Assembly (NCBI GenBank): GCA_017512085.1 | Contig: JAFWHD010000005.1 | Span: 1 to 38,063 of the forward strand | Direction of reading: 5' to 3' | From: Candidatus Saccharimonadota bacterium | GTDB taxonomy: Bacteria > Patescibacteriota > Saccharimonadia > Saccharimonadales > Saccharimonadaceae | Length of the DNA stretch: 38,063 bases | Position numbers and translations under genes: made by a program | The notes under the pieces: model-generated | What the model saw: the letters and a program-made list of their open reading frames with translations, nothing else | The model's database searches: none | What the model was told of the DNA's origin: nothing | Shown here: piece after piece, positions 1 through 25,607 of the stretch | Layout: every line of letters begins with the position of its first letter | Position numbering within the stretch: position 1 is the stretch's first letter

Positions 1-1112
1 CAGACGACCAACAAACCCTCCCCGCAGACCAGTATGGCAACACTCAGTCTAGCACTATTACTCTTTCTAATGTTACCCCTACGAAAGACGGCTGGGTATT
101 TAAGGGTTGGTGTAGTACTACTACTACGAGTGGCGGCACCGCTTGTCCAGGCACTACCTATCAACCAGGTGCCACCATTACTCTAGACGGTACCACTGGT
201 AACGATATGAATCTCCATGCCATCTGGGCAAAAGGCTACAATACCTTCGCCGATGCCTTCGCCGCATTCAATAAAGAAAAATCTGGCGACTATTATCAAA
301 TGCAAGACATGACGAGTGAGATATGTGATAGTATCGTCATCGGCTCCCCCTACACCACCGCAGACATCGCGAAAAACACTCTCATAGATACTAGAAACAG
401 TAAAACTTACTTAGTAGCAAAATATGCCGATGGTCATTGCTGGATGCGAGAGAATCTAAATCTCTCATTTACGGAAACTGAGGGCGTAGTAGATAGTGTG
501 GTGGCATACGATTTCTCGACTGGAAACACCTTTGATTATACTCCAGATAATGCCACTCAGACTGAGACTGACACTCCTTGGGCCGAGGATGCTAGCGATG
601 GAACACGTTCCTTTAAGCGAGATGAAGATCTCTGTATCGGCGGCACAGACATCTCCACATCGGGTGGCACTGGCGCTACTTGTGATGCCAATAAACCTTA
701 TGAGAGAATTGGTGTCTTATATAACTGGGCTGCCGCTACCGCACAGAACTCCGAAGCTGCTTCTAAAACCACCGAAGCCACTACATCCATTTGCCCGAAA
801 GGTTGGCGATTACCAGCTAGCTCAGGTGATTACTCATTTAGCGTCTTAATGGGCGCCTATGGTCTTCCCACTACGAATCAAGACCAAGGCTATTCTGGCC
901 AATTACAGAACCCGCTAAACTTCAATCGCCCCGGCTACTACAACTGGAGTACCAGCGCGCTGGACGGCAGGGGCACGGGTGGCTACTTTTGGTCCTCTGT
1001 GGGCTATAGTTCCACCAGCGCGCACTACCTCCTCTTCTACTCCAGCTACTTCGGCCCGCAGAGTGGTAACAACAAGGGCCTCGGCTTTTCGGTCCGTTGT
1101 GTGGCGGTCTAA
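1..1112 (+). CDS. FISUMP-domain secreted surface protein, C-terminal part (copy 1, 5' truncated by window)
   Basis: The reading frame is open from base 3 to the TAA at 1110-1112, so the start lies outside the window and the first internal ATG (207) is not the true start. The visible part begins with a Listeria-Bacteroides type repeat (flg_new/InlB B-like; GWVFKGWC followed by YQPGATITLDG and an AIW ending). It continues into a FISUMP domain (Fibrobacter major paralogous domain; motifs NSKTYLVAKYADGHCWMREN, CPKGWRLP, GGYFWSSVGYSS, and an SVRCVAV end). Such proteins are secreted and probably displayed on the cell surface; the ligand is unknown. It is a close paralogue of the gene at 23766-25607 from about base 220 on. 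Its last 65 codons look like a DGR variable region. The family call is confident; the biological role is inferred. Confidence 0.85.
   Translation, partial: DDQQTLPADQYGNTQSSTITLSNVTPTKDGWVFKGWCSTTTTSGGTACPGTTYQPGATITLDGTTGNDMNLHAIWAKGYNTFADAFAAFNKEKSGDYYQMQDMTSEICDSIVIGSPYTTADIAKNTLIDTRNSKTYLVAKYADGHCWMRENLNLSFTETEGVVDSVVAYDFSTGNTFDYTPDNATQTETDTPWAEDASDGTRSFKRDEDLCIGGTDISTSGGTGATCDANKPYERIGVLYNWAAATAQNSEAASKTTEATTSICPKGWRLPASSGDYSFSVLMGAYGLPTTNQDQGYSGQLQNPLNFNRPGYYNWSTSALDGRGTGGYFWSSVGYSSTSAHYLLFYSSYFGPQSGNNKGLGFSVRCVAV
915..1110 (+). other. Putative DGR variable region (VR) of FISUMP copy 1
   Basis: This 196-base segment aligns without gaps to 25410-25605. All differences fall in 15 codons at first or second positions, apart from one TTT/TTG. 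Non-variable codons are identical at the DNA level, including third positions, unlike the segment just upstream. Every differing base could derive from an adenine in a shared template. The invariant 3' end (the last 24 or so bases up to the first base of the stop codon) would be the initiation-of-mutagenic-homing-like segment. No template repeat or reverse transcriptase is seen in the window. Confidence 0.72.
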
Positions 1113-1127
1113 AAATAACGAATTGTT

Positions 1128-1269
1128 CTTTTGGGCTAACGCCTCATCTGGGACAATTTCCCGGAAAATACCAGAAAAGTCAAGTTCACTATATTATCAG
1201 GACTTTGTCCAGAACTGAACTTTACTTTTCTGGTTTTGTAGGCGTCCCAGATGAGGTGTTAGCCAAAAG
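1128..1269. repeat. Long hairpin element, family H1, copy a
   Basis: The outer arms 1128-1154 and 1244-1269 pair over about 26 bp with one bulge and one G-T pair. The inner arms 1171-1188 and 1216-1233 pair over 18 bp with one mismatch. Between them is an asymmetric internal loop (left AATTTCCCGGAAAATA, right TTTTGTAGGC). The same loop, inner arm sequence and outer-arm end (TCTGGGAC/GTCCCAGA) occur at 11901-12005, while the distal outer arms differ but still pair. It may be a structured RNA or a small palindromic mobile element. It begins 15 bases after the copy 1 stop codon. Confidence 0.75.
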
Positions 1270-23765: not shown

Positions 23766-25607
23766 ATGAGTGAAAGAAGAATTAAACAAGCAAGTCTGGG
23801 AGCTACTATATATAATATATATAGTAAAATATCACACCAGTCTAGTAAAAGTACTAGTAGTAAAAAGAGCAGAAATAAACGAGACATTATTTCTGCTCCG
23901 CCGTATAGCGAGTTCCCGGCTGCTACTAGTACTTTTAGTGGACTGGCGATACTATTCTCTCTTTTTCTAGGATTTCTGGGAGTAAGTAATACTTATGCTA
24001 GTAGCATTAGTATTTCACTCACTGGCAATGTAAATCTAAACATACTAAAAGACAACACTAATCCTACCTTTGGCAAATCCACTACTCAGACTGCCACAGT
24101 AACTAGCGATCACTTTACTGGCTACACATTAACTATAGCAGGCTCTAATGATACTGGAAGATTAGTAGGCAGTAATGACTCTACCAAATATCTAAGCTCT
24201 ATTACCACTCCACTCACAGAATCACAATTTAATACAGACGCCCATAATGATCAGTGGGGATTCCTACCTAGTAAGTTAAACAGTATTACGAATAATAGCT
24301 ATCAACCTTCCCCCACTGCTACCACACCTACCACGATAGATGTAACGAATAGTCCCACTACTGGCGAAAATTACACTCTAGCCTTAGCGGCGAGAGTGAG
24401 CAGTAATATGTCATTAGATTCCTACGGGCAAACCTTTGTCCTAGCAGCTACTGGGAATGGGTATGATTATCATATTGGCTATACGGATAATATGACTACA
24501 ATACCAAAAGACCAATATGCAACTAGTGCGGCAGAGGGGACGGTTCAATTATCATCTACTATACCTACTAAAGCTGGTTTTGTCTTCCGGGGTTGGTGCA
24601 GCCAGGAAACTAGTGTGGATATAATAAATGGGACTACATGTCCTAATGGAGCTACCGTCTATCAGCCAGGTGCAACGATTACGCTGGATGGAACATCTGC
24701 AAACAACCTGCTCCTTTATGCGATATGGGATAAAGGCTACAACACCTTCGCTGATGCCTTCGCGGCATTTAATAAAGAAAAATCTGGCGATTATTATCAA
24801 ATGCAAGACATGACACCAGAAATCTGTGATAGCATCGTTATCGGCTCTCCTTACACCACAGCAGACATTGCAAAGAATACTTTAATAGACACAAGAAACA
24901 GCAAAACCTACCTCGTCGCGAAATACGCTGACGGCCATTGCTGGATGCGTGAGAATCTAAATTATGTCTTCACAGCAGGTGGCACCGTAGTAGCTTACAA
25001 CTTCCAAACTGGCGAGACCTTTAATTATACTACCACTTATGCTACCCAGACCGAAACTGACACTCCCTGGGCTGAGGATGCCAGCGATGGCGCACGTTCC
25101 TTTAAGCGAGATGAAGATCTTTGTATCGGCGGTACAGACATTAATACCTCCGGCGGTACTGGCGCTACTTGTGATGCTTCTAGACCTTACGAACGTATTG
25201 GCGTATTGTATAACTGGGCAGCAGCCACGGCACAGACGAAGGATGATAATCCCCAGGATAAAACCAGCGAGGTAACTACGTCCATTTGTCCGAAGGGTTG
25301 GAGACTTCCATCTATTGGTGGCGACTACTCATTTAGCACTTTAATGGGTAGCTATAGCTTACCTACGACTAACCAATCCCAAGGTTATTCTGGACAATTA
25401 CAGAATCCACTAAACTTCAATCGCCCCGGCAACTACAACTGGAGTAACGGCGCGCTGTACTACAGGGGCACGGGTGGCTACTTTTGGTCCTCTGTGGGCT
25501 ATAGTTCCGCCGGCGCGTACGACCTCGGCTTCTACTCCAGCTACTTCGACCCGCAGTCTGGTAGCAACAAGGGCAACGGCTTGTCGGTCCGTTGTGTGGC
25601 GGTCTGA
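23766..25607 (+). CDS. FISUMP-domain secreted surface protein (copy 2, complete)
   Basis: The 613-aa product starts at 23766 (MSERRIKQ), because the identical start and AAAGGA site recur in copy 3; an upstream in-frame ATG at 23676 lies inside the leader. A basic N-region of about 55 residues precedes a hydrophobic helix (58-73) and a likely cleavage after TYA (about 78). Residues 80-255 form an unrecognised Thr/Ser/Asn-rich beta region (SISLTGNVNLNIL). A Listeria-Bacteroides repeat spans about 257-325 (GFVFRGWC, YQPGATITLDG). A FISUMP domain runs from about 325 to 613 (KTYLVAKYADGHCWMREN, CPKGWRLP, GGYFWSSVGYSS, SVRCVAV). Residues 549-613 are the putative DGR-diversified face. A lectin-like ligand-binding role is inferred. 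No sortase motif is seen. Confidence 0.9.
   Translation: MSERRIKQASLGATIYNIYSKISHQSSKSTSSKKSRNKRDIISAPPYSEFPAATSTFSGLAILFSLFLGFLGVSNTYASSISISLTGNVNLNILKDNTNPTFGKSTTQTATVTSDHFTGYTLTIAGSNDTGRLVGSNDSTKYLSSITTPLTESQFNTDAHNDQWGFLPSKLNSITNNSYQPSPTATTPTTIDVTNSPTTGENYTLALAARVSSNMSLDSYGQTFVLAATGNGYDYHIGYTDNMTTIPKDQYATSAAEGTVQLSSTIPTKAGFVFRGWCSQETSVDIINGTTCPNGATVYQPGATITLDGTSANNLLLYAIWDKGYNTFADAFAAFNKEKSGDYYQMQDMTPEICDSIVIGSPYTTADIAKNTLIDTRNSKTYLVAKYADGHCWMRENLNYVFTAGGTVVAYNFQTGETFNYTTTYATQTETDTPWAEDASDGARSFKRDEDLCIGGTDINTSGGTGATCDASRPYERIGVLYNWAAATAQTKDDNPQDKTSEVTTSICPKGWRLPSIGGDYSFSTLMGSYSLPTTNQSQGYSGQLQNPLNFNRPGNYNWSNGALYYRGTGGYFWSSVGYSSAGAYDLGFYSSYFDPQSGSNKGNGLSVRCVAV
25410..25605 (+). other. Putative DGR variable region (VR) of FISUMP copy 2
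   Basis: It is 196 bases long, ungapped and matched to 915-1110. Compared pairs include TAC/AAC, ACC/AAC, GAC/TAC, GGC/TAC, CTC/GGC and CTC/AAC, always with C kept at the third position. No synonymous change occurs in 65 codons, whereas about 10 occur in the 27 codons just upstream. The inferred template would carry mostly AAC at variable codons. Confidence 0.72.

Follow-up and report, generated by a model that had tools for sequence, protein, structure and literature searches.

In the prototype diversity-generating retroelement (DGR), that of the Bordetella phage BPP-1, one cis target is diversified, the template repeat (TR) lies on the strand of the reverse transcriptase (RT) gene and Avd is a stand-alone accessory protein; this and other canonical DGRs carry a structured (spacer) RNA 3' of the TR (PMC12875486, PMC8867640). 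Trans-acting and multi-target DGRs are already known as well (PMC4891356, PMC10907252, PMC8867640, PMC7517822). In Treponema denticola, one TR and one RT serve dispersed targets, 2–7 per isolate, which are surface proteins of a host-associated bacterium, and the accessory is of the HRDC type (PMC4891356). In cyanobacteria and Thiohalocapsa, remote paralogous targets are diversified in trans; Trichodesmium has 18 TR/variable repeat (VR) loci and Thiohalocapsa 15 targets, split over two and nine DGR loci, respectively (PMC8867640, PMC7517822, PMC10907252). TRs on the strand opposite to the RT were described as rare in DiGReF, with three cases, the 'inverted' DGRs of Shewanella, Vibrio and Photobacterium, in which TR, VR and target lie together on the other strand (PMC3521204).

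The window analysed here is a stretch of 38,063 nucleotides from the genome of a Candidatus Saccharimonadota bacterium (contig JAFWHD010000005.1 of assembly GCA_017512085.1). With very high confidence, two segments of the window can be assigned as VRs of one trans-acting DGR, located on contig C24 of the same genome. The C24 DGR resembles that of BPP-1 in its RT family, the adenine-limited transfer from TR to VR, an Avd-type accessory and a VR located at the target's 3' terminus and itself closing with a near-invariant sequence. It differs in having 15 targets rather than one, a TR that is inverted and placed 3' of the RT, and an Avd that is a domain of a larger protein. A single TR and RT with dispersed targets is also the arrangement of T. 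denticola, but here 15 FISUMP targets are found in 0.70 Mb. The remote paralogous targets are shared with the cyanobacterial and Thiohalocapsa systems, in which the high counts are reached with several DGR loci, whereas in this minimal genome 12 to 15 targets depend on a single TR. Unusual features are how many targets share one template in a genome of this size and a candidate RNA 5' of the TR, together with a lineage-wide flipped TR and a larger Avd-bearing accessory, either of which may have been described earlier.

The retroelement on contig C24

The genome (G000; one assembly of 696,564 bases in 42 contigs, 92% complete) was searched with the variable segment, which yielded 16 copies, corresponding to 15 VRs on 13 contigs and one TR. 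A reverse-transcriptase profile search found one RT in the assembly, on C24; at this completeness, a further RT or TR could exist outside it. One of the VRs lies beside the RT (cis) and 14 lie elsewhere, two of them in the window. The initial annotation had regarded both window genes as targets of one trans-acting DGR encoded elsewhere, and had proposed a genome-wide search for a near-match with AAC at the variable codons, next to a DGR reverse transcriptase; the TR and RT on C24 are what such a search returned. Its two-target picture was correct for the window genes and too small for the genome, which contains at least 15 targets.

The TR (C24:14984-15170, plus strand) is a noncoding, adenine-rich repeat of 187 bp outside any target gene, and its end is 24 bp from the stop codon of the RT. 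On C24 the minus strand carries, in this order, the cis target (FISUMP), an accessory gene of ~350 aa and the RT (405 aa), followed by the TR on the plus strand; the RT and accessory reading frames are intact. The RT contains the motifs YVDD and IGNLSSQ, matching the DGR clade pattern (YxDD; [IVL]GxxxSQ), and both motifs are present in 60 of the 62 RTs examined. It matches RVT_1 and phrog_1423 (E 9e-66), and the nearest PDB chain by sequence is 8ub7, titled 'Reverse transcriptase', which we take to be the BPP-1 DGR RT.

The C-terminus of the accessory protein was compared by hhalign with an Avd profile derived from 30 of the phylum's bAvd proteins, giving Prob 88 and an E-value of 3e-6, versus less than 1% for reversed and unrelated controls. 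A bAvd model search of the genome and a Pfam search with the accessory protein alone gave no match. A Foldseek search with a low-confidence model of a relative's accessory returned S23-family folds and Avd (4dwl), all with E >0.1. The extra domain ahead of the Avd-like domain is possibly MutS-I-like (hhalign of the N-terminus against MutS_I, E 0.05). Judged from its sequence, the element is a DGR, with a TR-adjacent RT, adenine-limited VRs and an Avd-like accessory.

Variable repeats, template versions and targets

VR A (925..1111, plus strand) aligns to TR positions 1–187, with 20 of 49 TR adenines and one of 138 other bases changed. VR B (25420..25605, plus strand) aligns to TR positions 1–186, with 18 of 48 adenines and two of 138 other bases changed. 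Each terminates in a near-invariant, putatively IMH-like 3' end identified from the alignments, GGTCCGTTGTGTGGCGGTCTA in VR A (1090..1111, plus strand; A167>G relative to the TR) and its counterpart in VR B (25585..25605, plus strand). The host genes are on the plus strand as well. Target gene A (3..1112) belongs to the FISUMP family (PF09603; E 3.5e-12 on the ORF 207-1112) and is truncated by the start of the window and contig, to which its frame is open. Target gene B (23766..25607) encodes a 613-aa protein with a hydrophobic, signal-peptide-like N-terminal segment, a C-terminal FISUMP domain and a Listeria-Bacteroides-like repeat scoring under the family cut-off.

Direct comparison of 915-1110 with 25410-25605 reproduced the counts reported earlier: 15 of the 65 codons differ, at 19 bases in all, and the 27 codons upstream contain 10 silent differences. 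None of the former had been considered silent, which is true of 14 of the differing codons, whereas the AGT/TCT codon is synonymous (Ser/Ser). All had also been thought to fit a template adenine; 16 of the 19 do fall on TR adenines (Fisher P = 2.4e-8), and the other three correspond to TR positions 30 (G), 99 (C) and 164 (T). The TR has AAC or AAT at the variable codons. The codon predicted as TTA is in fact TTT, and the template codon underlying a CAC/TAC difference is CAC.

The same bias extends to all 15 VRs. Relative to the TR, 289 of 729 adenines are changed compared to 98 of 2070 other bases, and the bias is significant in every VR alone (Fisher P 7e-5 to 8e-14). Within AA pairs of the TR the first A is changed in 63% and the second in 34% of cases, compared to 9% for single As; 40 TR adenines are changed in one or more VRs, and none of the 15 VRs contains a stop codon. 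Mean pairwise differences are 0.443 at A sites and 0.086 at non-A sites of the VRs, and the adjoining 240 bp upstream reach 0.269; such homogeneity at non-A sites is expected if one template overwrites the VRs repeatedly. Ordinary paralogues shaped by positive selection and gene conversion, with no retroelement involved, would account for targets that are members of one family with homogenised ends. This reading is extremely improbable and is refuted by the adenine-limited pattern relative to the RT-linked TR: it is the adenines of a single noncoding template, adjoining the RT, that are changed, the third-position C is kept, and the boundaries of the variable segments are those of the TR.

The TR and VRs share a near-invariant end of 20 nt. 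At position 167, where the TR has A, all VRs except that of the cis target (14 of 15) carry G. The change is synonymous and could represent an IMH/IMH* difference. Non-A mismatches to the TR number 0 to 16 per VR; the residual non-A changes are, as a group, put down to drift or tract-end effects.

Further paralogues had been singled out in the initial annotation as the place where many silent or non-A-compatible differences might appear; all 15 VRs proved adenine-limited, and three of the targets follow a second template version. These three (L014, L015 and L016, on C35, C4 and C11) agree with one another, and not with the TR, at nine non-A positions. The present TR therefore did not write them, and they are best read as the products of another or earlier template version, absent from the assembly. 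The remaining twelve targets are consistent with the present TR. The nine shared states would also follow if the genome had two templates, the C24 TR and a second TR outside the assembly serving these three targets. We consider this possible but less likely than not, as the assembly (92% complete) contains a single TR-like copy and an earlier version of the C24 TR would leave the same pattern. The three targets, together with the spread of non-A mismatches among VRs, are also compatible with an element whose diversification lies in the past and which is now inactive or serves only some targets. Such a quiet element is improbable to a greater degree, given the intact RT and accessory frames and the twelve VRs with 0–9 non-A changes, several of which, including both window VRs, have only 0–3.

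For the preferred reading, a trans-acting DGR on C24, the known DGR mechanism suggests the following course. The TR would be transcribed, an RT-accessory complex would copy the TR RNA with errors opposite adenines, and the cDNA would replace the VR of any target with the common IMH-like end. Up to 40 template positions (~20 codons, mostly AAC) would thus be randomised, and the remaining positions would repeatedly be returned to the template state.

The tested targets are members of the FISUMP family (PF09603), and a few further FISUMP places in the genome carry no VR. Complete targets have an N-terminal hydrophobic segment; most others are truncated at contig ends, so the real number of targets may exceed 15. 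The assembly probably breaks at targets because they have gene bodies in common; target-bearing contig ends were observed on C4, C11, C12, C14, C15, C17, C20, C24, C29, C34, C35, C37 and C40. The variable end of the cis target has a weak match to Lcl_C (DUF1566), and an AlphaFold2 model of the window target domain (pLDDT 41) was too poor to use. The targets are probably surface proteins, either exported or anchored, whose variable tip would be C-type-lectin-like. Their likely role would be to vary the host cells or surfaces bound by an epibiotic ultrasmall bacterium, which is probably host-dependent. With one template supplying as many as fifteen surface proteins of a cell whose genome is 0.7 Mb, a single retroelement may then set a sizeable part of the cell-surface repertoire, and the C24 DGR lends itself to the study, in a natural setting, of how attachment is varied by host-dependent bacteria. 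DGR efficiency depends on target orientation relative to replication (PMC12875486); here the orientation looks mixed, as estimated from whole-contig GC skew only, which is confounded by coding strand.

Two nested inverted repeats (arms of 25 and 22 nt) are located directly 3' of target A (1130..1268), and possibly represent a strong terminator, a homing hairpin or a MITE-like element. Separately, a dispersed, inverted-repeat-like element of ~100 bp has 29 matches in the genome, some away from targets, and starts at or shortly after the stop codon in about half of the target genes. Copies include C34:3805-3904, C35:26442-26541, C35:8721-8820, C40:39614-39713, C11:1330-1429, C14:540-640, C12:1397-1497 and C4:933-995, among others, and an Rfam search with this element gave no match.

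Locus architecture and a candidate RNA element

Relatives of the RT with ~35–46% identity are found in many genomes of the genus, and none were found in the viral contigs searched. The named relatives are a Saccharibacteria genome from goat reticulum (L020), a mussel gill symbiont and several Bacteroidales, mostly from rumen or gut. Every RT locus examined (56 loci, some overlapping) has an accessory ORF ahead of the RT. All 30 related loci in which the examined flank contained a genuine TR-VR pair have an antisense TR located 3' of the RT, although a few of these entries overlap at the same locus; an apparent sense TR in L112 was a self-match with 65 mismatches and was left out. The opposite-strand TR, rare in DiGReF, is thus the rule here; RT and TR lie on opposite strands as in the DiGReF inverted cases, but at most loci the TR alone is flipped (PMC3521204). 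The rumen and gut Bacteroidales DGRs (L019, L021–L026) have the closest named RTs besides L020 (36–41% identity), and the accessory of L025, with Avd and weak MutS_I matches, resembles that of C24. However, their TR is on the RT strand (sense) and upstream of the RT, in contrast to the antisense, 3' TR of C24.

The relative G207 has two DGRs, and the TR of one of them matches only one target plus the other's TR. In a further relative, G134, the RT 3' flank tested contained no convincing target. Multi-target use is therefore not general in the genus.

On the TR-sense strand, a closing stem with co-varying strands is found 5' of the TR in many loci. Any stem of at least 7 pairs near the TR was detected in 12 of 23 loci (5 expected). 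Fourteen element interiors, unselected for folding, were more stable than their shuffles (mean z -2.1, P 7e-5) and are mostly predicted to form two hairpins, giving a three-way junction. A score combining stem and motif was significant in 8 of 40 held-out loci (150 shuffles, binomial P 7e-4) versus 2 of 40 on the opposite strand; this weaker result supersedes a first scan with 20 shuffles (16/40). At the C24 locus, which was in the training set, the closing stem is at ~2774-2862 of L018, and the interior shows no unusual stability by itself (z 0.6). The element could not be aligned by MAFFT, RNAalifold gave no pairs, and there was no Rfam match at the gathering score.

A spacer RNA on the 3' side was rejected, with no consistent fold in the 150 nt 3' of the TR (mean z -1.0, scattered). 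Terminator-like hairpins within 110 nt 3' of the TR were found in 8 of 28 loci (0.8 expected), with none found at the C24 locus. The 5' junction and the terminators after the TR suggest that recruitment of the enzyme may have shifted from an RNA 3' of the TR to one 5' of it. Our tentative proposal, which we hold to be possible rather than probable, is that this DGR lineage of ultrasmall, Saccharibacteria-type bacteria has reorganised its template RNA: the TR would be transcribed towards the RT, often terminated just after the repeat, the conserved 5' three-way junction would be the RNA recruiting or priming RT and Avd, and Avd would be fused to a MutS-I-like domain. The 3' spacer RNA is central to current models of DGR priming, and the inverted TR with its 5' RNA junction would test the need for it.

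HTH_3 matches were obtained for 4 of 36 accessory members of the related genomes. The accessories of L047, L091, L096 and L097, read from their sequences, seem to have a helix-turn-helix start ahead of the common core.
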